DNA from: Gammaproteobacteria bacterium
GTDB lineage: Bacteria > Pseudomonadota > Gammaproteobacteria > Pseudomonadales > Azotimanducaceae
Length of the DNA: 64,000 nt
NCBI GenBank assembly: GCA_009846005.1
Contig: VXYL01000059.1
Coordinates: forward strand, 62,001-126,000
Direction: 5' to 3'
The notes under the pieces were generated by a model. The model was not told the DNA's origin and did not search any database. It worked only from the letters and a program-made list of their open reading frames with translations. A program made the translations under genes and the position numbers. This document shows positions 69 to 63,127 of the stretch, in pieces. Each line of letters opens with the position of its first letter. The stretch's first letter is position 1.

Positions 69-177
69 CGGGGCCCTAACGCCCCACGGCGTGCGGTCGC
101 CAGCTGGGCCCAAACGCCTTGGCCCGTCCGCTACGGCAGCGGCGGAACCCCGTAGGGGCTGGGCTCGTCCCCGCCCG
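69..177. repeat. Two degenerate GTAGGGG hairpin repeats
   Basis: Between the proB end and rpsT there are two decayed copies of the dispersed hairpin. One spans about 69-103: the TAACGCCCCACGGCGTG core with a GGTCGCC right arm matches the enlarged-loop copy at 46544-46588. The other spans 151-177: CGTAGGGGCTGGG, then CTCGT, then CCCCGCCC. Arm pairing is imperfect in both. Confidence 0.5.
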
Positions 178-204
178 CGCCTGGACATTGTCGTTGCCAC
201 GGAA

Positions 205-233
205 ACGGGACGGGACAAGCCCGTCCCTTTCGG
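205..233 (-). repeat. GTAGGGG hairpin repeat, GGGACGGG type
   Basis: Arms GGGACGGG (207-214) and CCCGTCCC (220-227) are perfectly complementary, with loop ACAAG. The copy lies 6 bases beyond the rpsT stop and could act as, or beside, its terminator. The usual CTACGG flank is changed to TTTCGG. Confidence 0.8.
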
Positions 234-239
234 TTCGTT

Positions 240-503
240 TCAGGTGAGCGCGTTGACCTTGGCAGACAGGCGAGACTTGTGCCGAGCGGCCTTGTTGCGA
301 TGCATGATGCCCTTGCTGGCCATCTTGTCGATCACCGGGATCGCTTCGGTCAGCGCCGTTCTTGCCGCCTCGGCGTCGCCGGCATCGACGGCCGCGACGA
401 CCTTCTTGATGTACGTGCGTACCTTCGAGCGGTGGCTGACATTGCGCGTGCGGTGGCGTTCGGCCTGACGTGCGCGTTTGCGGGCTTGCGGGCTATTTGC
501 CAA
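240..503 (-). CDS. rpsT: 30S ribosomal protein S20
   Basis: Small basic protein of the 30S subunit that binds 16S rRNA. The product from the TTG at 503 is 87 residues, the normal S20 length, and begins (f)MANSPQARKRARQAERHR, a classic S20 start. A longer reading exists upstream but is not S20-like. AGGA stands five bases before the TTG, and there is no ATG or GTG at the conserved start. E. coli rpsT also uses UUG, which is tied to its autoregulation, so the weak start is probably functional. The gene is divergent from murJ, with 92 bp between starts, as in Pseudomonas. Confidence 0.95.
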   Translation of the reverse strand: MANSPQARKRARQAERHRTRNVSHRSKVRTYIKKVVAAVDAGDAEAARTALTEAIPVIDKMASKGIMHRNKAARHKSRLSAKVNALT

Positions 504-595
504 AACGTTCCTGCGGTCGGTGGCGGAAGGCGGCGTAATATGCCCACCGATCGCAGGCGTGTCAATTGCGCGAGGGGTTTGGGCACGGGGCAATC

Positions 596-2185
596 GTGAG
601 CGATAGCGACGACATCGCCGCCCGCAGCGGTTCCGAGGGAAGCGACGTCGCTGCGCAGGGCGGCGTGTTCGCTGGCATGACCGTGCTGTCGAGGCTGTCC
701 GGGCTGGCTCGGGATTGGGCGCTTGCGCATGTGGTGGGCGCGACGGGTGCCGCCGATACCTTCTACCTGGCGTTTCGGATCCCGAATTTCTTCCGGCGCC
801 TGTTCGCCGAATCGACGTTCGCGCTCGCCTTCGTCCCCGTGCTTTCCGAGTACCGCGAACGCGGCAGCCACGCCGCGCTGCGGGCGTTCGTCGCGGCCCT
901 ATCCGGCAACTTCCTCATTGTGTTGTTAGTGGTGACGGTGGCCGGCGTTGCGGGCGCGTGGTTGCTCGCTGCGGTGTTCATGCCCGGGTTCCTCGGCGAT
1001 CCGGAGCGCTTCGCGCTCGCCACGGATTTGACGCGGATCATGTTCCCCTACATGGCGTTGATATCGCTCACCGCCTTTGCCGGTGCGACTCTCAACAGCG
1101 CCAACCGGTTCGCCATCCCGGCGTTCACGCCCGTGCTGCTCAACGTGTCGTTGATTGCGGCGGCGTTGTGGGCGGCATCGGGTGCGACCCAGGGCGTCTC
1201 GGGCATCGCCTATGCATTGGCGTGGGGTGTGCTTGCCGGAGGTGCGGCGCAACTGCTGTTCAACCTCCCGTCGGTGGCGCGGACCGGTCTGCTCGTTGCG
1301 CCACGACCGAACTGGCGCCACGAAGGCGTGGCGAAGGTCTTCAAACTCCTGGTGCCGGCGGTGTTCGCGGGTTCCGCTTACCAGGTGAACGCCTTGATCG
1401 GCACCATGTTGGCGTCGGTGCTCGAAGAAGGCAGTGCATCTTGGCTCTACTACGCCGACCGGCTTTGGGAAGTTCCCATCGGAATCGTCGCGATCGCGCT
1501 CGGCACGGTACTCCTGCCCAACCTGTCGCGGCTGCATACCGCTGGCGACTCGGCACGCTTCAACGACACGCTCGACTGGGGCGTGCGCACCGGGCTCCTG
1601 CTGGGTATTCCCGCAGCCGTCGCGCTCTGGGTGCTCGCCTATCCGCTGGTCGCGACGATCTTCCTGCACGGCGAGATGCGCCCGTACGATGCGGACCGGT
1701 CGGCAGCGGCCCTGCGCGCCTTCGCCGTCGGCCTCGTTCCGCTCATTCTGGTCAAGGTCGCCGTCCCCGGGTTCTTTTCCCGGCAGGACTCGAAAACGCC
1801 GCTCAAGTTCGCCGTTGCCGCCACGGTGGCGAACATCGCAATCAGCCTGGCGACGTTCTGGTGGCTCGGTCATGTTGGCCTGGCCTTGGCGACCAGCGTT
1901 GCCGGAATCGTCAACGCGGGACTGTTGCTCGGCGCGCTCGTCGCGGGGCGCCACTATCGGCCGAGCCGGCGCTTGGCACGAACGACACTCGTCGCGCTGC
2001 TTGGCACCGCCGGCATGGCGGCTGCGCTGGTGTTCGGCGTGCCCGACGAGGCCTCGTGGACGGAGGCCGGTCACTGGCTGCGGGTCGGTTGGCTTGCGTT
2101 GGCTGTCGTCGCGGGGCTCGTCGTCTATTCGGGCGTGGTGCTTGTCGGCGGTATCCGCCCGCGCGACCTTCGACATCGCGCGTAG
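596..2185 (+). CDS. murJ: Lipid II flippase MurJ
   Basis: Inner-membrane MOP-superfamily flippase that moves lipid II to the periplasmic face for peptidoglycan synthesis. The 529-residue product is hydrophobic throughout, with about 14 membrane segments. It has the MurJ N-terminal signature: SRLSGLARDWALA, then FRIPNFFRRLFAE and FVPVLSEY. I chose GTG 596, preceded by GGGG; a TTG at 566 is also open but overlaps the promoter region shared with rpsT. The stop codon TAG (2183-2185) is the first TAG of a hairpin repeat, so the extreme C-terminus (RHRA) may be set by repeat insertion. Confidence 0.95.
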   Translation: MSDSDDIAARSGSEGSDVAAQGGVFAGMTVLSRLSGLARDWALAHVVGATGAADTFYLAFRIPNFFRRLFAESTFALAFVPVLSEYRERGSHAALRAFVAALSGNFLIVLLVVTVAGVAGAWLLAAVFMPGFLGDPERFALATDLTRIMFPYMALISLTAFAGATLNSANRFAIPAFTPVLLNVSLIAAALWAASGATQGVSGIAYALAWGVLAGGAAQLLFNLPSVARTGLLVAPRPNWRHEGVAKVFKLLVPAVFAGSAYQVNALIGTMLASVLEEGSASWLYYADRLWEVPIGIVAIALGTVLLPNLSRLHTAGDSARFNDTLDWGVRTGLLLGIPAAVALWVLAYPLVATIFLHGEMRPYDADRSAAALRAFAVGLVPLILVKVAVPGFFSRQDSKTPLKFAVAATVANIAISLATFWWLGHVGLALATSVAGIVNAGLLLGALVAGRHYRPSRRLARTTLVALLGTAGMAAALVFGVPDEASWTEAGHWLRVGWLALAVVAGLVVYSGVVLVGGIRPRDLRHRA

Positions 2186-2224
2186 GGGCGACGGCACGCC
2201 CACAGGGCGCGCCGTCGCCTACGG
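2181..2224 (+). repeat. GTAGGGG hairpin with enlarged loop, overlapping the murJ stop
   Basis: Arms GGCGACGGC and GCCGTCGCC pair perfectly. CGTA and TACG extend the pairing outside. The loop holds a further GC-rich partial palindrome (GCCCACAGGGC). TAG 2183-2185 ends murJ. Confidence 0.8.
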
Positions 2225-2244: not shown

Positions 2245-2266
2245 CGGGACGGGACAAGCCCGTCAC
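2245..2266 (-). repeat. GTAGGGG hairpin repeat, partly decayed
   Basis: GGGACGGG, ACAAG and CCCGTC are intact; the right flank has changed to ACTGTG. It lies in the murJ-ribF gap, 85 bases before the ribF start. Confidence 0.7.
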
Positions 2267-5288: not shown

Positions 5289-5292
5289 CGGA

Positions 5293-11219: not shown

Positions 11220-11959
11220 TAGAGCCCGAGTGGCCCGTGCCGAACCGTGTCCGTGCCCTGGTCACGACCCGGGCCGGGGGAGTCAGCGAGCCGCCCTATG
11301 AGTCCTTCAACCTGGCGTTCCACGTTGGCGATGCGGCGGAGCGGGTCAAGCGCAACCGACGTCGATTGCTGGACCAGGCAGGAATCGAGGTGGTGCAATG
11401 GCTCGATCAGGAGCATGGCCAGCGCGTACTGGCGGCATCAAGCGGCACCGCGGCGGGCGGGCCGATCACGGCGGATGCATCCTGGACGATGGCGGGGGAT
11501 CTGGGCCTGGCCGTGCTCGTGGCCGATTGCGTTCCGCTTCTGCTGGCAGACGAAGATGCATCCCTGGTGGCCGTGGCGCACTGCGGCTGGCGCGGCACGG
11601 TCGCCGGCGTTGTCGAGGCGACGCTGGATGCGCTGCCGTCAGCGCCGGGCCAACTGATCGCCTGGTTGGGGCCCGGCGTTTGCAGGGACTGCTACGAAGT
11701 CGGTCCCGAAGTCCGAGACGCGCTCGACGGCGACGAGCGGGCGGTTCTCGACGAACAGAGGCGGCGTAGCGGCTCGGAGCGCAAGTGGCTCATGGACCTG
11801 CCCGCGCTCATCGTGGCGCGCCTGCGGCGGTCGGGCGTCGGGCGGATCGTTGCGTCGTCCCTGTGTACGATATGCGACAAGCGGTTCTATTCGTACCGCC
11901 GGGATGGACGCACCGGGCGCTTCGCAGCGCTGATTTGGCTGGCGGCGAGAGGGGTTTAA
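11189..11959 (+). CDS. pgeF: PgeF/YfiH family purine nucleoside phosphorylase / peptidoglycan editing factor
   Basis: Copper/zinc-binding enzyme of the LACC1/YfiH family. It is reported to act on purine nucleosides and to prevent wrong amino acids entering peptidoglycan. Motifs: TTRAGGVSEPPYESFNLA, VVQWLDQEHG, the metal site AHCGWRG, GPGVCRDCYEVG and CTICDKRFYSYRRDGRTGR. GTG 11189 gives 256 residues and overlaps rluD by 31 bases; a longer reading upstream is antisense-like. Confidence 0.93.
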   Translation: MLAARVGSTLIEPEWPVPNRVRALVTTRAGGVSEPPYESFNLAFHVGDAAERVKRNRRRLLDQAGIEVVQWLDQEHGQRVLAASSGTAAGGPITADASWTMAGDLGLAVLVADCVPLLLADEDASLVAVAHCGWRGTVAGVVEATLDALPSAPGQLIAWLGPGVCRDCYEVGPEVRDALDGDERAVLDEQRRRSGSERKWLMDLPALIVARLRRSGVGRIVASSLCTICDKRFYSYRRDGRTGRFAALIWLAARGV

Positions 11960-11961
11960 CC

Positions 11962-12795
11962 TTGGCTTGGATCGATCATCCGTTTCTTGATGCGCCCTTC
12001 GGCACCGCACTTGTCGTATGCCTGATACTCGCTGCGGTCGCGTGGGTCTTATCGCTGCTCACGCGCGAGGTTTCCTGGGTGGATCGCCTGTGGTCCATTT
12101 GTCCGCCGGTCTACTGCCTGATCGTTGCGGCGGAAACGGGCTTCGAGTCGACACGCATCAACCTGATGACTGCACTCGTGGTGCTATGGGGCGTGCGCCT
12201 GACTTACAACTTCGTGCGAAAGGGCGGCTACAAGAAGGGCGGCGAGGACTACCGCTGGGCATATGTGCGCGAGAGGGTCGGTCCGGTCGGCTTCCAGTTC
12301 ATGAACGTCATCTTCATCGCGCCGGGCCAGATGCTCCTCGTGTGGTTGTTCACATCGCCGGTGCACCAGGCTTGGCGGTTCCAGGAAACAGCGTTGAATT
12401 GGCTCGATCTGGTGGCCGCCGCGCTGTTCTTGCTGCTGTTCGTCGGCGAGACCGTCGCCGACCAGCAGATGTGGAACTTCCAACAGGACAAGAAACGCCG
12501 GCTCGCCGCCGGCGAGGACATCGAACAACCGTTCATTACGACGGGTCTGTTTCGCTACTGCCGCCATCCTAACTTTGCCTGCGAGATCGGCATGTGGTGG
12601 GTCTTCTACCTGTTTGCGGTAGCGGCCTCGGGAGCGTGGCTGCATTGGACGGCGCTTGGTTTCATCGCCCTGACGGCGCAGTTCATTCCGGCCATGCGCC
12701 TCGGCGAGTCAATCTCGGCAGCCAAGTATCCCGGGTATCGCGACTACCAGGCCACAACCCCGGCGCTAGTACCCCTGCCCTGGAAAAGACCGTAG
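11962..12795 (+). CDS. DUF1295 integral membrane protein (steroid reductase / methyltransferase-like fold)
   Basis: Multi-span membrane protein of 277 residues, related to the DUF1295 group of the steroid 5-alpha-reductase / isoprenylcysteine methyltransferase fold. Typical motifs are VSWVDRLWSICP, WGVRLTYNFVRKGGY, and the C-terminal GLFRYCRHPNFACEIGMWW. Physiological substrate unknown. TTG 11962 follows GAGAGGGG and lies 2 bases after pgeF, so it is probably co-transcribed. The stop TAG 12793-12795 belongs to a hairpin repeat. Confidence 0.82.
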   Translation: MAWIDHPFLDAPFGTALVVCLILAAVAWVLSLLTREVSWVDRLWSICPPVYCLIVAAETGFESTRINLMTALVVLWGVRLTYNFVRKGGYKKGGEDYRWAYVRERVGPVGFQFMNVIFIAPGQMLLVWLFTSPVHQAWRFQETALNWLDLVAAALFLLLFVGETVADQQMWNFQQDKKRRLAAGEDIEQPFITTGLFRYCRHPNFACEIGMWWVFYLFAVAASGAWLHWTALGFIALTAQFIPAMRLGESISAAKYPGYRDYQATTPALVPLPWKRP

Positions 12796-12996
12796 GGGCG
12801 ACCCTGTCGCGCGCGCAGGTCGCGCGGTCGCCCGCCGAGGCGCGACTGGCGGCGCGGGACGGGACAAGCCCGTCCCCTACGGTTCGTCCCGTCGCTGCCA
12901 TGGCGTTGTAGGGGCGACCCTTGTGGTCGCCCGCTCGGCCCCTGTGGTCGCCCGTGCCGGTTTTGCCAACGGGACGGGACAAGCCCGTCCCCTACG
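12791..12996. repeat. Cluster of four GTAGGGG hairpin repeats
   Basis: Four copies fill most of the gap before ilvI. (1) 12791-12834 (+): arms GGGCGACC/GGTCGCCC with a 21-base loop; its TAG ends the preceding gene. (2) 12855-12882 (-): GGGACGGG/CCCGTCCC. (3) 12907-12933 (+): GGGCGACC/GGTCGCCC with loop CTTGT, followed by a lone right arm at about 12939-12954. (4) 12970-12996 (-): GGGACGGG/CCCGTCCC. Confidence 0.88.
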
Positions 12997-13059: not shown

Positions 13060-14838
13060 GTGACCGAACGCCTCAGCGGCGGCGAAATGCTGATCCGCGC
13101 ATTGCAGGACGAGGGTGTCGAGTACGTATTCGGCTACCCCGGCGGCGCCGTGCTGCACATTTATGACGCGATCTTCAAGCAGCAGCGCATCGAGCACATC
13201 CTGGTTCGCCACGAACAAGCCGCTACCCATATGGCGGATGGCTACGCCCGTTCCACCGGCAAGCCGGGCGTGGTGCTGGTCACGTCTGGCCCCGGGGCCA
13301 CGAATGCGGTTACCGGCATCGCCACTGCATACATGGACTCGACGCCCATCGTGGTGATCTCGGGCCAGGTCGCCAACGAATTCATCGGCAGCGACGCCTT
13401 CCAGGAGACGGACATGGTCGGGGTGTCCCGTCCGGTGGTGAAGCATAGCTATCTCGTAAGAAGTGCCGCGGAGATCCCGCGAATCGTCAAGGAGGCGTTC
13501 TACATCGCCTGTTCCGGACGCCCGGGCCCGGTGGTGATCGACGTCCCCAAGGACACCACCGATCCCAACGTGTTCTTCGACTACGAATACCCGGAAACGG
13601 TGTCCCTGCGTTCCTATGCGCCGTCGACGCGCGGTCACAGCGGGCAGATCAGGAAGGCCGTGGCCGCGCTTCTGGCCGCCAAACGGCCCGTCCTCTACAC
13701 GGGCGGCGGCGTGATCCAGGGCGACGCCGCCAGTGAGTTGACACGGCTGGCGACAAGGCTCGGATTCCCGGTCACCAATACGTTGATGGGACTTGGCGGC
13801 TTTCCGGGGGATCAGGAGCAGTTTCTCGGCATGCTCGGCATGCACGGGACTTTCGAAGCGAACATGGCCATGCATCACGCCGATCTCATCTTCGCCGTGG
13901 GGGCGCGTTTCGACGACCGGGTGACCAACAATCCCGCCAAGTTCGCCCCGGACGCGACGATCATCCACCTCGATGTCGACCCCGCGTCCATTTCGAAGAT
14001 CATCAACGCCGACATCCCCATCGTCGGACCGGCATGCTCCGTGCTGGCGGAAATCGACCGTGTCGTCGAGGCGAAGATGGCGGAAGATCCCGATGCGCTG
14101 GACGCACGCGCGTTGGCGGACTGGTGGCGGCGTATCCGGGGCTGGCGCGAGGAACACGGTCTCGACCACGATCAGCGGCACCGCAAGGGCCTCAACGGTT
14201 CGTTGCTGCCGCAGCAGGTGGTGCAGGCGGTCTACCGGGCGTCGAACGGCCAAGCCTTCGTCACCAGCGATGTCGGTCAGCACCAGATGTTCGCGGCCCA
14301 GTACTACAAGTTCGATGCGCCGCGGCGATGGATCAACAGCGGCGGGCTCGGCACGATGGGATTCGGATTGCCGGCGGCGATGGGCGTGCAGTTCGCGCAT
14401 CCCGATGGCACCGTCGCGTGCATCACCGGCGAGGGCAGCTTCATGATGAACATGCAGGAGCTGTCCACCTGCATGCAGTACGCGCTGCCGATCAAGATCA
14501 TCAACTTGAACAACCAGGCGCTGGGCATGGTCAAGCAGTGGCAGGACATGCAGTACGGGGGGCGCCACTCCCACAGTACCTACCGGGATGCCTTGCCGGA
14601 CTTCAAGGCGCTCACCGAGTCGTTCGGCCATGTCGCGTATCGGATAGACGAGCTCGACGAACTCGACGATGTCATGGCCGATGTGTTCGGGGCCAAGCAC
14701 AAGAACGACCTGGTCTTTGTCGACGCCCACATCGACGCCGAGGAGCATGTCTATCCGATGGCCATCAAGGGGGGCGCGATGAACGACATGGTGCTCGAAC
14801 GCGTGGATGGTCGAGATGACATCCGCGACGATCTCTAG
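13060..14838 (+). CDS. ilvI: Acetolactate synthase large subunit
   Basis: ThDP- and FAD-dependent enzyme making acetolactate or acetohydroxybutyrate, the first common step to Val, Leu and Ile. 592 residues. The catalytic Glu is in HEQAATHMADGYAR (E52). The FAD/central domain has VGARFDDRVTNNPAKF. The ThDP motif runs from GEGSFMMNMQELSTC to LNN. The GTG start has no longer in-frame alternative. It forms an operon with ilvH and ilvC, followed by pssA-msrP-msrQ as in Pseudomonas. This is the biosynthetic enzyme; two further ThDP enzymes at 33425 and 57735 are separate families. Confidence 0.96.
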   Translation: MTERLSGGEMLIRALQDEGVEYVFGYPGGAVLHIYDAIFKQQRIEHILVRHEQAATHMADGYARSTGKPGVVLVTSGPGATNAVTGIATAYMDSTPIVVISGQVANEFIGSDAFQETDMVGVSRPVVKHSYLVRSAAEIPRIVKEAFYIACSGRPGPVVIDVPKDTTDPNVFFDYEYPETVSLRSYAPSTRGHSGQIRKAVAALLAAKRPVLYTGGGVIQGDAASELTRLATRLGFPVTNTLMGLGGFPGDQEQFLGMLGMHGTFEANMAMHHADLIFAVGARFDDRVTNNPAKFAPDATIIHLDVDPASISKIINADIPIVGPACSVLAEIDRVVEAKMAEDPDALDARALADWWRRIRGWREEHGLDHDQRHRKGLNGSLLPQQVVQAVYRASNGQAFVTSDVGQHQMFAAQYYKFDAPRRWINSGGLGTMGFGLPAAMGVQFAHPDGTVACITGEGSFMMNMQELSTCMQYALPIKIINLNNQALGMVKQWQDMQYGGRHSHSTYRDALPDFKALTESFGHVAYRIDELDELDDVMADVFGAKHKNDLVFVDAHIDAEEHVYPMAIKGGAMNDMVLERVDGRDDIRDDL

Positions 14839-16430: not shown

Positions 16431-16486
16431 CCACAAAGGTCGCCCCTCGAAAACGACGGCGTAGGGGACGGGCTTGTCCCGTCCCG
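16431..16486 (+). repeat. GTAGGGG hairpin repeat plus an adjoining fragment
   Basis: The full copy at 16460-16486 has GGGACGGG, loop CTTGT and CCCGTCCC. A fragment at about 16431-16446 (CACAAAGGTCGCCCC) resembles part of a GGGCGACC-type copy. They lie between ilvC and pssA. Confidence 0.8.
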
Positions 16487-22852: not shown

Positions 22853-22877
22853 GGGACGGGAAGCCCGTCCCCTACGG
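22853..22877 (-). repeat. GTAGGGG hairpin repeat with a short loop
   Basis: GGGACGGG and CCCGTCCC with loop AAG, two bases shorter than usual. The reverse-strand TAG (22874-22872) is the stop codon of the carboxylesterase gene. Confidence 0.85.
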
Positions 22878-33402: not shown

Positions 33403-33429
33403 CGGGACGGGACAAGCCCGTCCCCTACG
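33403..33429 (-). repeat. GTAGGGG hairpin repeat ending the ThDP gene
   Basis: GGGACGGG (33404-33411), loop ACAAG, CCCGTCCC (33417-33424). The adjoining reverse-strand TAG (33427-33425) is the stop codon of the ThDP enzyme gene. Confidence 0.88.
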
Positions 33430-35128: not shown

Positions 35129-35156
35129 CGTAGGGGACCGGCTTGGCCCGTCCCGT
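35129..35156 (+). repeat. GTAGGGG hairpin repeat, imperfect
   Basis: GTAGGGGACCGG, then a GCTTGG core and CCCGTCCC; the arms no longer pair fully. It lies upstream of the ThDP gene and hisI. Confidence 0.65.
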
Positions 35157-36615: not shown

Positions 36616-36643
36616 TCGTAGGGGACGGGCTTGTCCCGTCCCG
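36616..36643 (+). repeat. GTAGGGG hairpin repeat, GGGACGGG type
   Basis: GGGACGGG (36622-36629), loop CTTGT, CCCGTCCC (36635-36642), with the CGTA flank on the left. It lies between hisG and the carboxylase gene. Confidence 0.88.
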
Positions 36644-40203: not shown

Positions 40204-40230
40204 TGTAGGGGCGACGCTTGTCGTCGCCCG
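40204..40230 (+). repeat. GTAGGGG hairpin repeat, GGGCGACG type
   Basis: GGGCGACG (40209-40216), loop CTTGT, CGTCGCCC (40222-40229). Both arms differ from the common GGGCGACC form in one place each and remain paired: a clear compensatory change. Confidence 0.88.
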
Positions 40231-40272: not shown

Positions 40273-40300
40273 CGGGACGGGACAAGCCCGTCCCCTACGG
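40273..40300 (-). repeat. GTAGGGG hairpin repeat, GGGACGGG type
   Basis: GGGACGGG (40274-40281), loop ACAAG, CCCGTCCC (40287-40294), CTACGG flank. It lies 13 bases beyond the stop of the TlpA-like gene. Confidence 0.88.
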
Positions 40301-41635: not shown

Positions 41636-44362
41636 TCAGACCGATGAGGGGTGTTCCGTAGGGGCGACCCTTGCGGTCGCCCGGGCGGGGACAAGCCCCG
41701 CCCCTACGGTCACCGACCCACTGTCGCCGTCAACCGTTAGGGTCTGACCGTCCAGGATTCGTTCCGTGGCATCCACAAGCCCCAGCACCGCCGGAATCCC
41801 GTATTCCCGCGCCACGATGGAACCGTGGGCGAGGATGCCGCCGATGTCGGTGACCAGCCCGATCGCCTGGGGAAACAACTGCGTCCAGGCGGGCGTCGTG
41901 GTGGGGCAGACGAGAATCGTCCCGGGCCGCATTCGGTCGAAATCGCTAGGCGACAGGATGACACAGGCTTCGCCGGTGACCTGACCCGGGCTGACGGCCG
42001 AGCCCTTCAGGACGCTGCCTGACGTATTGGATTCGGCCCCCGACGATAACGGTGACCATGGCGGGGGGCCGGGGATCAGGGCGGGCGGCTTCAATCGCTT
42101 CCTCGCCTCCCGAAGCTCGCGCCGTGCGAACGCCACGTCCGCGTACTCGGGAAGACCCGGTCCGTCCGGGTAGTGTGCATGCCGGTGGGATTGAGGCAGC
42201 CGGGCCAGCGCGACGAGGCTGCGGACGGCACGACCGAGCTCGCCGGTGGTGAGGAAGAAGATGTCACCGGGTTGGTGCAACGTGCCGACTTCGACCAGTC
42301 GCCGACCCAGTTCCCTGGCAAGGGGGCGCAGGACGGTCCATGCCCGGCCCAGGTCGAACATCGCCCGTTCGCGGTTTGGGTAGTAGCGGCGCGCAATCCA
42401 GAGCCGCCACCGGAATCGCCACCGCAGCTTGCCTCGGAAGTGCTGGCTTGCGGCTCGTAGGGCGTCTCGCTGCCGGCGTCGGATCTGTCGTCTGGCGGCG
42501 CTGCCATCGTAGGGTGAAACCAGGAGCGCGTGGAGGCTGCGGAGGGTGTTCAATGGACTCTCGGCCTCGGAGGGCTCGACGAAGTCCAGGGTGAAGACCT
42601 GGTGTCCGTATTCAGCGAAGTAGCCGTCCATGGCGGCCCGTGCCAGGCCGCCATCCGGGTGGCTGTCGAGGATCTCGCGGAGCCGGTGGGGCGAGGCGGC
42701 AATTACGGCATCGAACAACGTCTCTCGGTCGCGGATCGCCTCGGCGACCGCCGCGAGCTTGGTTTGCGCGTCCAACGCGGGAGACGCAAGGCCGCTCAGG
42801 AACTGGCCGCTGGTGAACTGGCCGTCACCGTGTTGCTCGAGGAATTGGTGGAGTTGGTGCTCGGTACCCCGGCTGAGCGCGAATGCGTTCCAGACACCGT
42901 CGTTGTACCAGTAGCGCGCGTCGGCTTTGGACATGGCCCGAATGCCAGTCCATAGCTGCTCGACGGTGGTCGCCTTCGGATCCACTGCGTGCCAGGTGTG
43001 AATTTCGCGTCGGTAGCGGGGGAGGGCGACGAAGCGCCACCTTGGGACGAAAGTCAGGTACATGCGGAGCGTCCGTAGTCGCGCCGCTAGTCGAGATCGT
43101 CGGGCAGGGCTCCCGGCCAGGGGTCGCCCCCTGCGGGGCGGTTCGCCCACTTGCCGGTACGCGAATCCGTTGACCGTCGTGGTGAGGTGGAACGAAGCGG
43201 GTGGCTGCGTGTCCTCGTAGTCGTGGTTGCCGCGTCGAACCAGGTTGCGACCCCAGGCCTCCTGTAGCGACCGCTTCATGTGCAGGTCCTCGAACAACGT
43301 CGACACCGGCTCCGGAACATGCTCGACCCACTGGCTGCGCTGCAGGTAGGCACCGGGCTCTGGCGGGTCCCAACGCACATCGACGAGCGGCTCTGGCGGC
43401 AGGTTCGTGATCGGTCGGGATTGCAGTATCCACAGCTTGCCGGACGCAAATGCCCACTCGATGTCCTGGGGGATGCCGTCGAAGTGTTGTTCGATGGCGC
43501 GAGCCTCGCGACCGAGTTCAGTCAGCTGATCCGGCGACACCGAGGCGAGGCGCCGCTGCTTAGCCCCGACGTCAACGGGACGGGTGCCGCCATCGTCCGC
43601 GCCGACAACCATGTGCGCCTTGTCGCCGAGGTGGGTGTCCCTTGCCGCGAGGCTCTCCCTGTCGAGGACGAATTCGTCGGGGCCGACGGTGCCGCCCACG
43701 ATGCCTTCGCCGAGGCCGTAGCCGGCGTTGACGATCATTTCGCCTCGGGCACCGGTGGCGGGATTCGCGGTGAAGACCACCCCGGACACGTCGGCGTCGA
43801 CCATGCGTTGCACGACCACCGCCACGGCCACGTTGGCGTTGTCGACGCCGAGGCGGTGGCGGTAGGCCAGTGCGCGGGCCGACCACGCCGACGCCCAGCA
43901 TCTCCGGACGGCCGCCACGAACGCTTCCAGGTCGAGGATGTTGAGGTAGCTCTCCTGCTGTCCCGCGAACGAGAAGTCCGGCAGATCCTCGGTCGTGGCC
44001 GAGGAGCGAACCGCAACGGGCGTCACATCGGCGGCGACATCCGCATAGGTATCCCGGAGGCCGTCGAATAGGTCGCTGGCCAACGAGGCCGAATCGAACA
44101 TCTCTCGGATTCGGCCCGCAGCGGCATCGAACGACAACATCCCTTGCGCGAACTCCGGTCTCGCCGCGTCCACCACCGATCGATCCATTCCGGTGTCCCG
44201 GACGAAGCGTCGGTACACCGCCGTTGGAAGGATGCGGGCGTGAGGAACCGCGAAGCCTTCCCCCACCAGTCGCGACAGGGAATGGCCTTTGCCACCGACT
44301 TGCCCGATGGTGGCCGGCTCGCCCAGTCTCATCGATCGCGTTCGTTCATCCACTTGTTGCAA
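41636..44362 (-). CDS. PEP-utilising enzyme, rifampin phosphotransferase-like
   Basis: 908 residues in the order ATP-binding PEP synthase domain, middle helical domain, swivelling His domain. ATP domain: IGQVGGKGHSLSRLV, PVAVRSSATTEDLPDFSFAG, ADVSGVVFTANPATGARGEM. The phospho-carrier His is H846 in ILAHGSIVARE, followed by GIPAVLG. The layout matches rifampin phosphotransferases, which inactivate rifamycins, but the middle domain cannot be assigned by eye. Residues about 885-902 are translated hairpin-repeat DNA. TTG 44362 is the longest start; GTG 44353 is possible, and ATG 44332 would trim the conserved N-terminus. Confidence 0.85.
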   Translation of the reverse strand: MQQVDERTRSMRLGEPATIGQVGGKGHSLSRLVGEGFAVPHARILPTAVYRRFVRDTGMDRSVVDAARPEFAQGMLSFDAAAGRIREMFDSASLASDLFDGLRDTYADVAADVTPVAVRSSATTEDLPDFSFAGQQESYLNILDLEAFVAAVRRCWASAWSARALAYRHRLGVDNANVAVAVVVQRMVDADVSGVVFTANPATGARGEMIVNAGYGLGEGIVGGTVGPDEFVLDRESLAARDTHLGDKAHMVVGADDGGTRPVDVGAKQRRLASVSPDQLTELGREARAIEQHFDGIPQDIEWAFASGKLWILQSRPITNLPPEPLVDVRWDPPEPGAYLQRSQWVEHVPEPVSTLFEDLHMKRSLQEAWGRNLVRRGNHDYEDTQPPASFHLTTTVNGFAYRQVGEPPRRGRPLAGSPARRSRLAARLRTLRMYLTFVPRWRFVALPRYRREIHTWHAVDPKATTVEQLWTGIRAMSKADARYWYNDGVWNAFALSRGTEHQLHQFLEQHGDGQFTSGQFLSGLASPALDAQTKLAAVAEAIRDRETLFDAVIAASPHRLREILDSHPDGGLARAAMDGYFAEYGHQVFTLDFVEPSEAESPLNTLRSLHALLVSPYDGSAARRQIRRRQRDALRAASQHFRGKLRWRFRWRLWIARRYYPNRERAMFDLGRAWTVLRPLARELGRRLVEVGTLHQPGDIFFLTTGELGRAVRSLVALARLPQSHRHAHYPDGPGLPEYADVAFARRELREARKRLKPPALIPGPPPWSPLSSGAESNTSGSVLKGSAVSPGQVTGEACVILSPSDFDRMRPGTILVCPTTTPAWTQLFPQAIGLVTDIGGILAHGSIVAREYGIPAVLGLVDATERILDGQTLTVDGDSGSVTVGAGLVPARATARVAPTEHPSSV
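41657..41710. repeat. Two GTAGGGG hairpin repeats inside the gene end
   Basis: Back to back: GGGCGACC (41662-41669), CTTGC, GGTCGCCC (41675-41682), then GGGCGGGG (41683-41690), ACAAG, CCCCGCCC (41696-41703). The second shows yet another paired arm version. Both are read as codons of the PEP-utilising gene. Confidence 0.9.
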
Positions 44363-44621: not shown

Positions 44622-44694
44622 CGTAGGGGCGACCCTTGTGGTCGCCCGCGACGGTAACGGGCGCTGCGGGACGGGACAAGCCCGTCCCCTACGG
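44622..44694. repeat. Two GTAGGGG hairpin repeats in opposite orientation
   Basis: 44622-44648 (+): GGGCGACC, CTTGT, GGTCGCCC. 44667-44694 (-): GGGACGGG, ACAAG, CCCGTCCC, CTACGG. They fill the gap between bfd and the epimerase gene. Confidence 0.9.
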
Positions 44695-46543: not shown

Positions 46544-46588
46544 CCGTAGGGGCGACCCTAACGCGCCCGAAGGGCGCGCGGTCGCCCG
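46544..46588 (+). repeat. GTAGGGG hairpin with enlarged loop
   Basis: Outer arms GGGCGACC (46550-46557) and GGTCGCCC (46580-46587). The 22-base loop holds an inner hairpin, GCGCCC-GAA-GGGCGC. This is the clearest nested form. Confidence 0.85.
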
Positions 46589-47683: not shown

Positions 47684-47710
47684 CGTAGGGGACACCCTTG
47701 TGGTGTCCCT
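47684..47710 (+). repeat. GTAGGGG hairpin repeat, GGGACACC type
   Basis: GGGACACC (47689-47696), loop CTTGT, GGTGTCCC (47702-47709). The only copy with this arm pair; pairing is perfect. It lies between convergent genes. Confidence 0.9.
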
Positions 47711-50596: not shown

Positions 50597-52222
50597 ATGA
50601 ACCGTTGGTGGACGGTGGTTGCCTGGGCTATCGCGACGCTCGTCGGGATTCCCGTCATCGTGGTGGTGGCGGCACTCGTCACACCCGAGAGCGCCTCATG
50701 GTCACATCTGCGCGACACGGTTCTCGTCGACTACGTGGTCAATACGGTCGCGTTGACGGTTGCGGTCGGCGTGCTCGCCGCGCTGATCGGAATCGCCGCC
50801 GCGTGGACGGTTGCGACCCGGGAGTTTCCGGGCCGGCGGCTGTTCTCCTGGGCGTTGGTATTGCCCCTTGCGGCACCCGCCTACGTGGTCGCGTACGTGT
50901 ACACCGATCTCTTGGAGTTCGCCGGGCCTATGCAAAGCGCATTGCGCGCCGCCACGGGTTGGGAGGCAGGCGAATACTGGTTCCCGCCGATCCGGTCGCT
51001 TCCCGGTGCGGCGCTGGTGTTGGGCCTCGTGCTCTATCCGTACGTCTACCTGTTGGCACGGACGGCGTTCGAGAGCCAGGCCGCCTCGCTGTTCGAGGCG
51101 GCTCGAGTGCTGGGCGCTTCGCCCCGGCGGGCATTCGGGGCCGTCGCCCTGCCTGCGGCGCGCCCAGTGATCGCCGGGGGGATCGCGTTGGCGATGATGG
51201 AGGCCGTCGCCGACTACGGTGTCGTCGACTATTTCGGCGTGTCGACGTTCACGACGGGCATCTTCCGCACCTGGTTCGCGCTCGGCGACCGGGCGGCCGC
51301 GCTTGAACTGGCGGCTTGGCTGTTCGTGCTGGCCCTGGTGCTGGTACTCGCCGAGCATGCCGGCAGGCGTGGACAGTTCAGCAATCCGGTCGCACGGGAC
51401 GTGGCGGCACCGCGGTTGGTCCTGCGTGGTGCGCGCGCGGTCTTGGCGATGGTTGGATGTTCGATTCCGCTGTTGCTGGGCTTCATCGTGCCTGTCGTGG
51501 TCTTGGCAAGCCACGCGGTTGCGGTGGGCGACCCCCTCTTAGGTCGGCAATTCGGCGGTTTCGTCAGCAATAGCGTGGTCGTTGCCGGTGCGACGGCGGC
51601 CGTCGCGACCGTGTTGGCGATCTGCCTGGCCTACAGCGGACGCTTGAGCGGTGGGCGGTCGACCGGACTCGCACTACGGGCGGCAACGCTCGGCTATGCA
51701 CTGCCCGGCACCGTGGTCGCGGTGGGCGTGCTGGTACCGCTGGCCTTCCTCGACAAGTCCATTGCCCGATTCCTGGCTGGACACGGGATCGATGTCGGGC
51801 TGTTACTGACCGGGACGGTCGCTGCCCTGGTATTCGCCTATGTGGTCCGGTTCCTGACGGTGGCGTACAACGCCTGCGACGGCGGGATGGAAAAGGTGCA
51901 TCGGAACCTGGATGCCGCCGCCCGGACGCTCGGCGCGCAGCCGCGCCGGGTACTCGCCGCCATCCACTTCCCGCTGACCCGCGCCGCCGTCGCGAGTGCC
52001 GCGCTGCTCGTGTTCATCGATGTCATGAAGGAATTGCCGGCAACGTTGATCCTGCGGCCGTTCAACTTCGAGACGCTCGCGACCCGGGTCTACCGTCTCG
52101 CTTCCGACGAGCGACTCGCGGAAGCTTCGACAGCGGCTCTCACCATCGTCCTCGTGGGCGTGGTACCGGTCGTGCTGCTCAACCTTGCGGCGGCACGTCG
52201 TCGAAAGGATGAAAACACGTAG
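50597..52222 (+). CDS. fbpB: Fe(III) ABC transporter permease
   Basis: Double-domain permease of 541 residues with about 12 membrane segments. Each half carries an EAA-type loop: EAARVLGASPRRAFGAVALP and DAAARTLGAQPRRVLAAIHF. DVMKELPATLILRPFNFETL is typical of FbpB. It is divergent from fbpC, with a 68-bp gap. The stop TAG 52220-52222 belongs to a hairpin repeat. Confidence 0.94.
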   Translation: MNRWWTVVAWAIATLVGIPVIVVVAALVTPESASWSHLRDTVLVDYVVNTVALTVAVGVLAALIGIAAAWTVATREFPGRRLFSWALVLPLAAPAYVVAYVYTDLLEFAGPMQSALRAATGWEAGEYWFPPIRSLPGAALVLGLVLYPYVYLLARTAFESQAASLFEAARVLGASPRRAFGAVALPAARPVIAGGIALAMMEAVADYGVVDYFGVSTFTTGIFRTWFALGDRAAALELAAWLFVLALVLVLAEHAGRRGQFSNPVARDVAAPRLVLRGARAVLAMVGCSIPLLLGFIVPVVVLASHAVAVGDPLLGRQFGGFVSNSVVVAGATAAVATVLAICLAYSGRLSGGRSTGLALRAATLGYALPGTVVAVGVLVPLAFLDKSIARFLAGHGIDVGLLLTGTVAALVFAYVVRFLTVAYNACDGGMEKVHRNLDAAARTLGAQPRRVLAAIHFPLTRAAVASAALLVFIDVMKELPATLILRPFNFETLATRVYRLASDERLAEASTAALTIVLVGVVPVVLLNLAAARRRKDENT

Positions 52223-52244
52223 GGGCGACCCTTGCGGTCGCCCG
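52218..52244 (+). repeat. GTAGGGG hairpin repeat overlapping the fbpB stop
   Basis: GGGCGACC (52223-52230), loop CTTGC, GGTCGCCC (52236-52243). TAG 52220-52222 ends fbpB. Confidence 0.9.
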
Positions 52245-56591: not shown

Positions 56592-57665
56592 ATGCCTCGC
56601 TATCGGATCGCTGTCATTCCCGGCGACGGCATCGGCAAGGAAACGGTGCTGGAAGGAATCCGCGTACTCGACGCCGCCGGTAGGCGTTTCGGCATCGATT
56701 TCGACTGGGAGACGTTCGACTGGGGCTGCGAGCGCTACGCCCGCACCGGTGCGATGATGCCCGAGGACGGCATCGAGGCCATCCGTGACCACGATGCCAT
56801 CTTTCTCGGCGCCGTCGGTTTCCCCGGAGTTCCAGACCATGTCTCGTTGTGGGGCCTGCTGATACCCGTCCGGCGGCATTTCGAGCAGTACGTGAACCTG
56901 CGTCCAGTGCGGCTGCTCAGAGGCGTCGAGTCGCCGCTGCGGGGCCGCACGTCGAAGGACATCGACTTCCTCGTCGTGCGGGAGAACAACGAAGGGGAGT
57001 ATTCGGACATCGGCGGACGGCTGTTCCCCGGCACGGACGACGAGGTGGTGGTCCAGGAAAGTGTCTTCACCCGTCGTGGCACCGACCGGATCATCCGCTA
57101 CGCATTCGAACTGGCGCGGCAGCGTCCTCGGCGCCAAGTCACGTCGGCCACGAAGTCCAACGGCATCAAGCACACGATGCCGTTCTGGGACGAGCGTTTC
57201 GAGGCCGTCGCCTCGGACTATCCGGACATCGAGACGGCCAAGTTCCACGTTGACATCCTCGTCGCACAGTTCGTCCTGCACCCGGACTGGTTCGACGTCG
57301 TGGTGGGCAGCAACCTGTTCGGCGACATCCTCTCGGACTTGGGCCCGGCGGTGGCGGGTACCATCGGCATCGCGCCGTCGGCGAACATCAATCCGGAGCG
57401 GAAGTTCCCGTCGATGTTCGAGCCCGTGCACGGCTCGGCACCGGACATCGCGGGGCAGGGCATCTGCAACCCCATCGGTCAGATCTGGTCGGGGGCGATG
57501 ATGCTGGAACACCTAGGACACGAGGATGCCGCGCGGGCCGTGGAGACAGCCATCGAGGCGGCGCTTGCCGACCCGGCGGTGCTCACCCCGGACATGGGCG
57601 GCACGGCGAACACCGTGGCGCTCGGCGAAACCATCGCGCACGCCGTGGCAAAACCGTCCTCGTAG
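56592..57665 (+). CDS. Tartrate dehydrogenase / D-malate dehydrogenase-type oxidative decarboxylase
   Basis: 357 residues, beta-decarboxylating dehydrogenase family (isopropylmalate, isocitrate, tartrate, D-malate). Start RIAVIPGDGIGKETVLEGI; ENNEGEYSDIGGRLF gives the substrate Arg/Tyr region; the metal/NAD motif is VGSNLFGDILSDLGPAVAGT; and EPVHGSAPDIAGQGICNPIG is conserved. FLGAVGFPGVPDHVSLWGLL is typical of tartrate/D-malate members. The TAG stop is part of a hairpin repeat. Confidence 0.9.
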   Translation: MPRYRIAVIPGDGIGKETVLEGIRVLDAAGRRFGIDFDWETFDWGCERYARTGAMMPEDGIEAIRDHDAIFLGAVGFPGVPDHVSLWGLLIPVRRHFEQYVNLRPVRLLRGVESPLRGRTSKDIDFLVVRENNEGEYSDIGGRLFPGTDDEVVVQESVFTRRGTDRIIRYAFELARQRPRRQVTSATKSNGIKHTMPFWDERFEAVASDYPDIETAKFHVDILVAQFVLHPDWFDVVVGSNLFGDILSDLGPAVAGTIGIAPSANINPERKFPSMFEPVHGSAPDIAGQGICNPIGQIWSGAMMLEHLGHEDAARAVETAIEAALADPAVLTPDMGGTANTVALGETIAHAVAKPSS

Positions 57666-57738
57666 GGGCGACCCTTGTGGTCGCCCGCGGGTGGTCGTCC
57701 CGGTGGCGGCCGCGGGACGGGACAAGCCCATCCCCTAC
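57661..57738. repeat. Two convergent GTAGGGG hairpins, each supplying a stop codon
   Basis: 57661-57688 (+): GGGCGACC, CTTGT, GGTCGCCC; its TAG (57663-57665) ends the dehydrogenase gene. 57713-57738 (-): GGGACGGG, ACAAG, CCCATCCC; its reverse TAG (57737-57735) ends the acetolactate synthase-like gene. The second arm has one mismatch (a G-T wobble in RNA). Confidence 0.92.
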
Positions 57739-59387
57739 AACGTCGCCGTGATCTCCCCGAGTTTCTGGGTAAGCAACCGGTTTTCCCGGTAGTCGATGGG
57801 GATCACGACCAGGCTTGGTCCCGGATCTCGGAACGACTGTTCCAGGACGTCCCTGAGGTCCCGGCTGTTCGGGCATTCGTAGCCGTTCCAGCCGAACGCG
57901 TCGGCGAGCTGAAGCCAATTGGGATTGCCGAACGACAGGTCGGTATGACGCCCGAATTCGTTCTCCTGTTTCCAGGCGATGAGCCCGTACTCGTTGTCCT
58001 CCCAGACGAGCACGGTAATCTCGCTACCCAGCCGCCGGGCGGTCTCCATCTCTTGTACGTTCATCAGGAAGCCCGCGTCGCCGCACACCGCGAGAACCCG
58101 ATGCTCGGGAAACACGAGGTTGGCGGCGATGGCGCCCGGGAGGGCGAATCCCATGGAACAAAACCCGTTCGGGATCAGGCAGGTATTCGGCTCGTAGCAG
58201 TGGTAGTGGCGGGCGATCCACATCTTGTGCGCGCCGACGTCGGACAACAGGATGTCTTGGGCGCCCAACACGGCTCGTGCGTCGATCAACGCCTTCTGCG
58301 GGCGGATCGAGCCCTCGGTGTCGTCGTCGGCGTGCTCCGCGATGTCGTCGAGCATGTCCGAGCGAAGAGAGCGTTGGTCTGCGAGGTCGAACTGGAGTCC
58401 TCCCGCCTGGTCAATTCGTTCATTGAACATCCACAGCAGGTGCGCCAGGTCGCCGACCAGTTCGACCGTCGGCACGTAGTGCGCGTCGACCTCCGCCGGC
58501 AGGAAGTCGGCGTGGATGATCGGCTTGTCGGCGTTGGGGTTCCACAGCCGTGGGTGGTATTCGACCATGTCGAACCCTAAGGAAATGACGAGGTCGGATT
58601 CGTCGATGGCGAGGTTCACCCGGTCGCGTGTACCCAGTCCGGCCGTGAACAGGCAGTACTCGGCGCCCATGTCGACGCACCCCTTGGCCATGAAGGTGCT
58701 GACCACGCCGATGCCCGTCTTCTCGCAGAACAGCTTCAACTGCCGGCTGGCGCGACGGCGAATGCAGCCGTTGCCGGCGAGGATGACTGGCCTCTTTGCC
58801 TCCCGAAGCAATTCGAATGCCTGGTTGACGATCTTGTCGTCGGTGACAGGTCGTCGGCGCCGACGGGGCGTGATGGGTTTCGCTTCGGTGTCGAGCTTGG
58901 CGATGTCCTCGGGAAGTTCGATGTGCACGGCACCCGGCTTTTCCGTGGTGGCGATGCTGACGGATTTGCGGATGATCTCCGGAATGGCTTCGGGTGTGCG
59001 CACGGTTTCCGCCCACTTGGTCACCGGTTCGAACATGGCGACGACGTCCATGACCTGGTGGGACTCCTTGTGAAGGCGGTGCGTGGTGCCTTGCCCAGTC
59101 AGCACCAGTAGCGGCGAGCGGTCCATGTTGGAGTCGGCCACCCCGGTGATGAGATTGGTGGCGCCCGGCCCGAGCGTTCCCAGGCACGCGGCCGGCGTAC
59201 CCGTAAGCCGACCGTACACCTCCGCCATGAACGCCGCCCCCTGTTCGTGGCGGGTCAGCACGAAGCGGATCTTGTCCGAGGCTTCGAGCGACATCATGAA
59301 GTCGGCGTTCTCCTCGCCGGGGACGCCGAAGATGTACTCGATGCCTTCCTCTTCAAGGCACTTGACGAACAGGTCGGATGCTTTCAT
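57735..59387 (-). CDS. Acetolactate synthase-like ThDP enzyme (catabolic AlsS/IlvB-type)
   Basis: 550 residues. The catalytic Glu is in TRHEQGAAFMAEVYGR. ThDP motif: GDAGFLMNVQEMETA to WEDNEYG (with N-Tyr-Gly). LISLGFDMVEYHP-like VISLGFDMVEYHPRLWNPN and QNEFGRHTDLSFGNPN are typical of acetolactate synthase-like enzymes without a small subunit. It is the last of a minus-strand group after gabD and an esterase, so it may act in catabolism rather than in Val/Ile synthesis. Confidence 0.9.
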   Translation of the reverse strand: MKASDLFVKCLEEEGIEYIFGVPGEENADFMMSLEASDKIRFVLTRHEQGAAFMAEVYGRLTGTPAACLGTLGPGATNLITGVADSNMDRSPLLVLTGQGTTHRLHKESHQVMDVVAMFEPVTKWAETVRTPEAIPEIIRKSVSIATTEKPGAVHIELPEDIAKLDTEAKPITPRRRRRPVTDDKIVNQAFELLREAKRPVILAGNGCIRRRASRQLKLFCEKTGIGVVSTFMAKGCVDMGAEYCLFTAGLGTRDRVNLAIDESDLVISLGFDMVEYHPRLWNPNADKPIIHADFLPAEVDAHYVPTVELVGDLAHLLWMFNERIDQAGGLQFDLADQRSLRSDMLDDIAEHADDDTEGSIRPQKALIDARAVLGAQDILLSDVGAHKMWIARHYHCYEPNTCLIPNGFCSMGFALPGAIAANLVFPEHRVLAVCGDAGFLMNVQEMETARRLGSEITVLVWEDNEYGLIAWKQENEFGRHTDLSFGNPNWLQLADAFGWNGYECPNSRDLRDVLEQSFRDPGPSLVVIPIDYRENRLLTQKLGEITATL

Positions 59388-61809: not shown

Positions 61810-61835
61810 GGGGTTCTCCTCTCGGTGGCCGCTCG

Positions 61836-61844
61836 ATCATAGCA
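61836..61844 (-). promoter_or_regulatory. Possible extended -10 promoter of gabD
   Basis: Reverse-strand TGCTATGAT lies 27 bases upstream of the gabD ATG, the same sequence as the element before hisI. No strong -35. Confidence 0.35.
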
Positions 61845-61923
61845 GCCTGTCCAGTTCGAGGAGCGCTGGTTGCCGGTGCGGGTGATAGGCTTGACGACCA
61901 TTGCAGGATGCGGAATCGACCCC

Positions 61924-62982
61924 ATGAGCCGAAAGTCAGTCGTTTGTCTTGGCGGCCCTGCGGTCGCCGCCTTTGGCGTGTTGGCGTTCGTGACCGGTCA
62001 CGTTGTTGGCGGCGAATTGCCGAACCTTGCCGACCGGGCGGGACGGTTCCTCGCCGAGATGACCCCCCAACAACGCGAAGCCGGCACCTGGGCGTTCACC
62101 GACCGGAAACGTTACGACATCCACTTTGCGCCATTCGACTTGGAGGGCGTCCGTCACGGTGAGCTCTCAGACATGGCAAAGAACACCGGGGAGAGTCTGC
62201 TCGCGGCGTTCCTGTCGGAACGGGGACACGAAAAGACCCGGGCCATCCGGCAGTTGGAACTCGACATCCGCGAACTCGAGTCGGGCCGATCAGGCGTCGA
62301 GGAGTTCCGCGACCCCGAACGCTACTACTGGGCGGTCTTCGGCGAGCCGGCCGTGGACGCAGCCTGGGGCTTTCGCTTCGAGGGCCACCACCTGTCGTTA
62401 AACGTCACCGCCATGCCTGGACAACCGGCGGCGACACTGCCCCTGTTCCTGGGCGCGCAGCCGCGCCTCGTCCCGGCGGACATGCCCTCTGCCGGGGTCG
62501 CGGTACTCGGTGAGGAGGAGCGCCTCGCGCGCGAGCTTTACGACAGCCTCGACGAGTCCCAACGTGCCGCGGCCACGCTGCCCTACAAGCGCGGCCGCGG
62601 CCACATGCTGGGCCAGGTGTCGACGCTGCGCGACCCGGCATCGGTTGGTCTGCCGCGCCGCGACATGAACGACGATCAACGAGCGATGCTGGACGCCTTT
62701 CTAACCGAGTTCGCCGGGCTCTGGAACGCTGGCATCGAAGCCGCCCGACTCAAGGAGATCAACGACGCGCGTGAAGGACTGCACTTCGCCTTCGTCGACC
62801 GGGCCGATCCGCCGTTCTCCTTCTACGTGCGGGTGTCCGGGCCGGGTGTCCTGATCGAGATCGACAATACGGCTGGCGGCGATCACCTGCATGCTGTGTG
62901 GCACCGCCCGGGGGCGGATTTCGGCGAAGATCTACTGGCTGCACACCTGGAACGTCACCACGGCGTTCTGGCACGCCGCTAG
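61924..62982 (+). CDS. DUF3500 exported protein
   Basis: 352 residues with a signal sequence (GGPAVAAFGVLAFVTGHVVGG). Family stretches: MTPQQREAGTWAFTDRKRYD, YYWAVFGEPAVDAAWGFRFE, GHHLSLNVT and the C-terminal EIDNTAGGDHLHAVWHRPGADFG (in pieces). The HLHAVWR-type motif is characteristic of DUF3500. Function unknown. It is followed by three hairpin repeats. Confidence 0.9.
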   Translation: MSRKSVVCLGGPAVAAFGVLAFVTGHVVGGELPNLADRAGRFLAEMTPQQREAGTWAFTDRKRYDIHFAPFDLEGVRHGELSDMAKNTGESLLAAFLSERGHEKTRAIRQLELDIRELESGRSGVEEFRDPERYYWAVFGEPAVDAAWGFRFEGHHLSLNVTAMPGQPAATLPLFLGAQPRLVPADMPSAGVAVLGEEERLARELYDSLDESQRAAATLPYKRGRGHMLGQVSTLRDPASVGLPRRDMNDDQRAMLDAFLTEFAGLWNAGIEAARLKEINDAREGLHFAFVDRADPPFSFYVRVSGPGVLIEIDNTAGGDHLHAVWHRPGADFGEDLLAAHLERHHGVLARR

Positions 62983-62997
62983 GACCGCACAGACGCG

Positions 62998-63127
62998 TGT
63001 AGGGGACGGGCTTGTCACCGCCCTCGTTGAACCGGTGGCGTGCGGAGACCGTAACACGGGCGGGGACAAGCCCCGCCCCTACGGGCCTGCCCCGCACGGA
63101 CGTAGGGGACGGGCTTGTCCCGTCCCG
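62998..63127. repeat. Three GTAGGGG hairpin repeats in tandem
   Basis: 62998-63024 (+): GGGACGGG, CTTGT, then a decayed right arm (CACCGCCC). 63057-63084 (-): GGGCGGGG, ACAAG, CCCCGCCC. 63101-63127 (+): GGGACGGG, CTTGT, CCCGTCCC. They lie between the DUF3500 gene and the convergent LLM gene, whose TGA is 4 bases beyond the last copy. Confidence 0.9.

Follow-up and report, generated by a model that had tools for sequence, protein, structure and literature searches.

A dispersed GTAG hairpin family in an Azotimanducaceae genome, very probably REP elements spread by a RAYT transposase

Introduction

Repetitive extragenic palindromic (REP) elements headed by GTAG, and the REP-associated tyrosine transposases (RAYTs) whose genes they flank, are the closest described relatives of a family of repeated hairpins that we analysed in a 64,000-nucleotide stretch of DNA (the window: positions 62,001 to 126,000 of contig VXYL01000059.1) from the gammaproteobacterial assembly GCA_009846005.1 (Pseudomonadales; Azotimanducaceae). 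We conclude that the hairpins belong to a GTAG-class REP family of about 25-base non-autonomous elements, spread by a Y1/HUH RAYT encoded on contig C12 of the same genome (probability about 0.93). They form an ordinary but very clear REP family: GTAG stands directly 5' of a short GC-rich palindrome, copies are numerous, mainly extragenic and mostly arranged as inverted dimers, and a Y1 HUH gene with HUH and tyrosine motifs is flanked by the same REPs.

The account of the GTAG super-family (Di Nocera et al. 2013, PMC3733652) already treats GTAG heads, copy numbers, dimers, where copies lie, stop codons, REPs flanking RAYT genes and stems with alternative complementary residues. The present hairpins share with it the GTAG end, stems that are mostly 6-9 bp there, sub-families with alternative complementary stems, dimers with GTAG on the outside (heterodimers being preferred in most families there), convergent and co-directional placement, GTAG stop codons and REP-flanked RAYT genes. 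They differ in the loop, which has five bases here, whereas most loops there are very short, often of two or three bases. The strings GTAGGGG, GGGCGAC and CTTGT are absent from the portion of that article's text consulted; the stems and loops of its 24 families sit in its Figure 1, outside this comparison.

In TnpA-REP subclass 2.4 (PMC6006769), too, the canonical long REP has a foot of three consecutive G-C pairs and the transposase carries NHVH and WQ motifs; the subclass has members in many phyla, and REPs lie inside some related RAYT genes. The likeness to this subclass is judged from sequence, and since the tyrosine motif reads YINANP here and YIxNNP there, we do not file the present system in it. 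RAYT-associated gammaproteobacterial REPs (Nunvar et al. 2010, PMC2817692) share a GT(A/G)G head and a GC-rich palindrome flanking a RAYT, and some listed there, for example from Haemophilus, have a CTT or CTTG core at the tip; their stems differ, and the present stem is not among the REP classes in the table rows examined. Pseudomonas fluorescens REPINs (PMC3116915) are also inverted doublets that are the likely moving unit and cluster beside a cognate RAYT, but those doublets pair across the spacer into one hairpin, whereas here the arms differ and each REP folds alone.

Because REPs, RAYTs, dimers, alternative stems and the foot have all been described, we place the hairpins within the known REP/RAYT kind. 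The occurrence of a five-base loop with exchangeable arms over many phyla may be less noticed; we do not claim it to be unreported, the string GTAGGGGC having been judged among the matches listed. The papers listed for the string GTAGGGGCGAC carried titles unrelated to REPs.

A high-copy family of GTAG hairpins

The genome (G000; 4.96 Mb in 106 contigs, with the window on contig C93) contains 545 copies of an exact pattern, GTAGGGG followed by five bases, CTYGY, five bases and CCC, and no match to a control in which the pattern is read backwards. The control yielded two matches in total over the 38 genomes searched; an earlier, looser pattern, with 121 matches against 86 for its control, was dropped. 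Across the genus, at least nine copies occur in 11 of 16 genomes (G000 included), one copy in two and none in three, the highest counts being those of G000 and of a relative, G010 (491). Outside the genus, a single copy was found in each of two genomes and none in the other 20 of the 22 searched. The dispersed hairpin family described in an earlier note on this DNA is confirmed.

Within the window, GTAGGGG occurs at 32 sites on both strands, against about four expected by chance (100 dinucleotide shuffles: mean 3.99, maximum 9). From these sites and the gene calls, which were made with an in-house dicodon script, we assigned 27 copies to the family. Twenty-four have an intact GTAG head and hairpin, two have a decayed head (207-231 and 46664-46688) and one has a broken 3' arm (62999); a degenerate partial copy at about 2245-2264 lies beyond the 27. 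The earlier estimate of about 29 copies was therefore essentially right, and all five arm pairs quoted with it are found in the window. The copies, with the degenerate one, are as follows.

152..176, + strand: REP hairpin, arms GGGCTGGG/CCCCGCCC, loop CTCGT
207..231, - strand: REP hairpin of GGGACGGG type, head decayed to GAAA, partner of 152
2182..2220, + strand: REP-like hairpin with long loop; GTAG contains the stop codon of gene 566-2185
2245..2264, - strand: partial degenerate copy, ACGGG type
12792..12833, + strand: REP hairpin of GGGCGACC type, long internal loop; GTAG contains the stop of gene 11935-12795
12856..12880, - strand: REP hairpin GGGACGGG, outward-facing dimer with 12792
12908..12932, + strand: REP hairpin GGGCGACC, loop CTTGT
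12971..12995, - strand: REP hairpin GGGACGGG, dimer with 12908
16461..16485, + strand: REP hairpin GGGACGGG, single
22853..22875, - strand: REP hairpin GGGACGGG, three-base loop; GTAG contains the stop of gene 22872-24440(-)
33404..33428, - strand: REP hairpin GGGACGGG; GTAG contains the stop of gene 33425-35125(-)
35130..35154, + strand: REP hairpin GGGACCGG/CCCGTCCC, one mispair, in a divergent gap
36618..36642, + strand: REP hairpin GGGACGGG
40205..40229, + strand: REP hairpin GGGCGACG/CGTCGCCC
40274..40298, - strand: REP hairpin GGGACGGG, dimer with 40205 in a convergent gap; missing from that gap in relative G005
41658..41682, + strand: REP hairpin GGGCGACC, loop CTTGC, at the 3' end of gene 41636-44332(-)
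41683..41707, - strand: REP hairpin GGGCGGGG, abutting 41658
44623..44647, + strand: REP hairpin GGGCGACC
44668..44692, - strand: REP hairpin GGGACGGG, dimer with 44623; when folded, its outer CGTAG/CTACG ends pair
46546..46587, + strand: REP hairpin GGGCGACC, long internal loop
46664..46688, - strand: REP hairpin GGGACGGG, head GTTG, dimer with 46546
47685..47709, + strand: REP hairpin GGGACACC/GGTGTCCC
52219..52243, + strand: REP hairpin GGGCGACC, loop CTTGC; GTAG contains the stop of gene 50597-52222
57662..57686, + strand: REP hairpin GGGCGACC; GTAG contains the stop of gene 56592-57665
57714..57738, - strand: REP hairpin GGGATGGG/CCCGTCCC, one G-T pair, dimer with 57662; GTAG contains the stop of gene 57735-59387(-)
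62999..63023, + strand: broken copy, ACGGG head side, 3' arm mutated
63058..63082, - strand: REP hairpin GGGCGGGG; with 62999, the remnant of an outward dimer
63102..63126, + strand: REP hairpin GGGACGGG, inward-facing neighbour of 63058

Seven GTAGGGG sites lie inside genes (1051, 7840, 8561, 21979, 24288, 29237 and 54228) and look like chance occurrences; those at 7840 and 24288 passed a loose detector used for wider counts and were excluded from the 27 as chance. Folded as single-stranded DNA, two single copies each gave the expected stem of eight pairs closed by a loop of five bases (z -4.5 and -3.2). Two dimers folded better than most shuffles (z -3.5 and -3.7), and one of them also paired its outer ends.

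The loose detector, which lets in some chance sites, finds 26 copies in the window and 170 across 832 kb of the genome, or one per 4.9 kb. The 62 kb directly to the left of the window (C93:1-62000) contain no family copies in 31 gaps of at least 40 bases, an emptiness with a probability of about 2e-4 under gap-type rates. A copy-free stretch beside a dense window may reflect an island or a mis-joined contig.

A palindromic, decayed-looking stretch at about 63-130 of the window was left out of the family count; it may be what the earlier note's starting position of 69 refers to.

A RAYT gene among the hairpins

A gene at 18965-19591 of contig C12 encodes a Y1_Tnp protein whose open reading frame contains NHVH, WQ and YINANP motifs, read as HUH and tyrosine motifs following PMC6006769. 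By sequence, the solved structures related to it are 2xm3-type transposases, matched weakly (best E 0.009), and TnpA-REP 4er8 (E 0.14). Ten hairpins stand in the 4 kb around the gene, on both sides of it and mostly alternating, with GGGACGGG types (one of them GGGGCGGG) on one strand and GGGCGACC types (one mutated to GGGCAACC) on the other.

Among the 16 genus genomes, G010 alone yielded a full-length relative (74%). Twelve hairpins accompany it in 3 kb: eleven, alternating, lie to one side of the gene and one GGGACGGG copy to the other. Y1 matches were also inspected at 14 other places, of which one is in G000 and 13 are among the 17 others listed for genus relatives (some stretches reach a contig end); the flanks there hold no GTAGGGG or only one. 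The earlier note had called the origin of the hairpins unsettled and had proposed searching for a Y1 HUH transposase or RAYT. Given that one such gene was found, flanked on both sides by hairpins of both arm types, the origin lies in the known REP/RAYT system.

Hairpins beside related RAYTs in other organisms

A search with the RAYT gave 62 loci. The nearest named relative by transposase, L053 (a gammaproteobacterial metagenome-assembled genome, MAG), and G010 are very likely one genome and are therefore not independent. With the loop left free, 117 GTAG hairpins (eight pairs, at least seven of them Watson-Crick) occur in 40 of the 62 loci, against 4 to 8 for four scrambled heads. A second search, which demanded the head and a CTYGY loop but no pairing, gave 101 sites in 44 loci (five scrambled heads gave 0 to 14), and sites with seven or eight Watson-Crick pairs occur in 32 loci. 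These anchored sites hold 56 distinct arm pairs, 17 of them perfect (including GGGCGACC, GGGCAACC, GGGCAGGC, GGGCACCC, GGGCGCCC, GGTCGACC, GGGTAACC and GGACGGGG), and 347 of 448 cells are Watson-Crick, against a largest value of 260 in 5000 shuffles, which ignore relatedness. By record title, loci with perfect types come from Chloroflexi, Cyanobacteria (Nostoc), Bacteroidetes, KSB1, Omnitrophota, Spirochaetia, Phycisphaerae, Thermus/Deinococcus and several proteobacterial groups, with many MAGs among them.

GTAG hairpins also lie inside the matched RAYT coding stretch at ten loci (L054, L058, L060, L062, L066, L068, L072, L076, L083 and L089), several at the same relative position. Hairpin insertions in RAYT genes have been reported for subclass 2.4 (PMC6006769).

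Several observations weigh against assigning the family to this RAYT. The protein scores 79.1 bits against the NCBIfam model NF047646 (REP-associated tyrosine transposase), whose cut-off is 80, although that cut-off governs naming and the protein does pass the one set by Pfam for Y1_Tnp. Nine other genus genomes carry 9-283 copies with no close RAYT found; there the gene may have been lost, or missed in draft assemblies. RAYT-like partial matches of 39-41% in G004, G009 and G014 were set aside and are not flanked by REPs. Across the RAYT loci the loop is not fixed: CTYGY occurs in 60 of the 117 hairpins (26 loci) and CCTTGT in 13 (8 loci), while the rest vary, 17 of them coming from a single locus, L080. 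No such hairpin is present at 22 of the 62 loci, some of which are truncated or partial matches, and no transposition event was seen.

The nine genomes with copies, together with a second, weak Y1 match in G000 (on C23), would suit an account in which another enzyme moves the copies and the RAYT is merely one of many genes that happen to lie beside them. The RAYT, however, sits amid dense arrays in two genomes while the 14 other inspected Y1-match places do not, related RAYTs elsewhere carry GTAG hairpins, and the C23 match was rejected, being below the cut-off and without flanking hairpins. We therefore consider a different mover highly improbable, on a search that was confined to Y1 matches, with other transposase families outside it.

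Stem types and the co-variation of arms

An anchored set of 131 copies was drawn from the 832 kb by requiring the head, the 5' GGG and a loop of C[TC][TC]G plus any base, with the 3' arm left free. The loop is CTTGT in 108 of these; with the loop itself left free, 121 GTAG hairpins were found, of which 94 have CTTGT and 14 have CTTGC or CTCGT, so that the earlier description of a usual CTTGT loop is essentially correct. The three foot pairs are G-C in 125-128 copies, the 5' side being demanded by the search and the 3' side free. Stem positions 4-8, where pairing was not required, are each Watson-Crick in 121-125 copies, against 63-71 expected under independence.

Three perfect stem types account for 88 of the 131 copies (GGGACGGG 54, GGGCGACC 24 and GGGCGGGG 10), and six minor perfect types account for 11. 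In the remaining 32 the stem is imperfect: exactly one position is unpaired or G-T in 24 of them, and more than one in eight, some of which are perhaps outside the family.

For this genome, then, the earlier picture of paired arms, a fixed head and a nearly fixed loop is upheld. Its further claim, that the co-varying arms are the mark of selection on structure, holds in part: pairing is far above chance, but an excess of paired over single changes fails copy by copy (11 minor perfect copies against 24 with a single imperfect position and eight with more). Because most copies fall into three stem types and single copies change mainly on one side, the co-variation within the genome is mainly inherited with a few amplified stem versions. 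The pairing constraint shows better across organisms than within the genome. For a dispersed repeat, paired arms alone are no proof of compensatory evolution at each copy.

Long-term structural selection on every copy, with arms mended in place by compensatory mutation, could account for the six minor perfect types, but it sits poorly with the copies that have one or more unpaired or G-T positions and with REP content that differs among relatives at two compared gaps (below). Amplification of a few versions is a simpler account of the pattern, and mending in place is unlikely.

Dimers, placement and stop codons

The 170 loose-detector copies form 52 neighbour pairs no more than 120 bases apart, with GTAG outside in 41, inside in eight and in tandem in three. 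Of 26 outward dimers of main-type arms, 25 are heterodimers; about 11 homodimers would be expected, and none of 20,000 shuffles had as few. In 148 of the 170 copies a C precedes GTAG, and in 148 a G follows the 3' arm.

All 27 window copies lie between called genes or at gene 3' ends, those at 41658 and 41683 being inside the last 72 bases of a gene. The earlier note's statement that every copy is so placed thus stands for the window but not for the 832 kb, where 98 copies are intergenic, 37 overlap a gene 3' end, two overlap a 5' end and 33 lie fully in called genes. Extragenic placement is nonetheless strong, with 137 of 170 copies not fully inside genes against 12% expected, since 88% of random 25-base stretches fall inside genes. 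Among gaps of at least 40 bases, copies occupy 36 of 73 convergent, 47 of 248 co-directional and three of 101 divergent gaps (convergent against divergent, Fisher P 1e-13).

Stop codons were tallied separately. In 38 of 38 copies overlapping a gene 3' end, the GTAG head supplies the TAG stop. This is largely forced by where open reading frames end; that 38 of the 170 copies lie exactly there is not. Seven window genes end on a REP-head TAG (2182, 12792, 22875, 33428, 52219, 57662 and 57738).

The strong convergent and co-directional bias, the near absence from divergent gaps and the many hairpins directly at stop codons are also what one might expect of intrinsic terminators or mRNA 3'-end stabilisers kept by the host, with the RAYT link incidental. 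Against this, no T tract follows the hairpins, positions +1 to +12 each being mostly G or C, and for this reason we rejected intrinsic termination as the main explanation. A conserved regulator would not be expected to form dimers, to flank a RAYT gene or to turn over at two gaps, and an Rfam scan of the window gave no match at gathering score. As the primary identity of the hairpins, such a host function can be given very little credence; a terminator or stabiliser role may exist as a secondary one beside their identity as REPs.

Turnover between relatives

Two orthologous gaps were compared between relatives, and both differ in REP content. In the gap 3' of gene 11935-12795, compared in eight genomes, G000 has two dimers and G001 none, G010, G003, G005, G002 and G011 have other, single or degenerate REPs, and G008 has GTAGGG and no hairpin (G006, G009, G013 and G014 were not anchorable, and G004, G007, G012 and G015 lay outside the comparison). 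In the convergent gap 40161-40313, G000 and G010 carry different dimers and G005 lacks one (G002 and G011 were not anchorable, and the remaining genomes lay outside the comparison).

The in-frame GTAG stop at 12792 was read by eye in several relatives, one of which (G008) has no hairpin there. Together with the 38 of 170 copies that supply a stop, this hints that REP insertion may take place immediately 3' of a GTAG already present, or that the head persists after the hairpin is lost.

A proposed mode of recognition and spread

We propose that the RAYT encoded on C12 cuts and pastes the REPs, which are often paired as outward-facing, BIME- or REPIN-like heterodimers. The enzyme would most likely read the 5' GTAG head, the foot of three G-C pairs and the loop on single-stranded DNA, and in mid-stem would require nothing but a duplex. 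Amplification would be limited to stem versions still able to fold, giving rise to sub-families with different but complementary arms, and the observed placement would result from purging of copies from promoters and genes.

A broader version of this scheme is that one RAYT lineage spanning many phyla reads the head (GTAG with the G-C foot) plus a recurring loop (CTYGT or CCTTGT), leaving the mid-stem free as long as it is paired. Since the loop recurs across RAYT loci without being fixed, we hold this only as a tentative suggestion, with the odds somewhat against it. In E. coli, REP recognition involves reading of a bulged stem. Recognition of head plus loop, if true, would differ from that case and would account for the occurrence across bacteria of GTAGGGG palindromes whose arms differ each time. 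The best lead from this work is the loop's recurrence with exchangeable arms, and the loop and arm variants across phyla offer a ready substrate panel for asking what a RAYT reads. With its many copies and a transposase that looks intact, the genome itself offers a clean REP/RAYT system; some relatives have it and others lack it, and turnover is visible at two gaps.

Other features of the window

Two observations concern genes among the hairpins. On the minus strand at 29232-32420, a 1062-residue protein has as its sole Pfam match a Beta-lactamase-family domain (residues 753-1014); domains of this family are found in esterases and peptidases too. Three separate thiamine-pyrophosphate enzymes are encoded within about 46 kb, at 13060-14838, 33425-35125 and 57735-59387.

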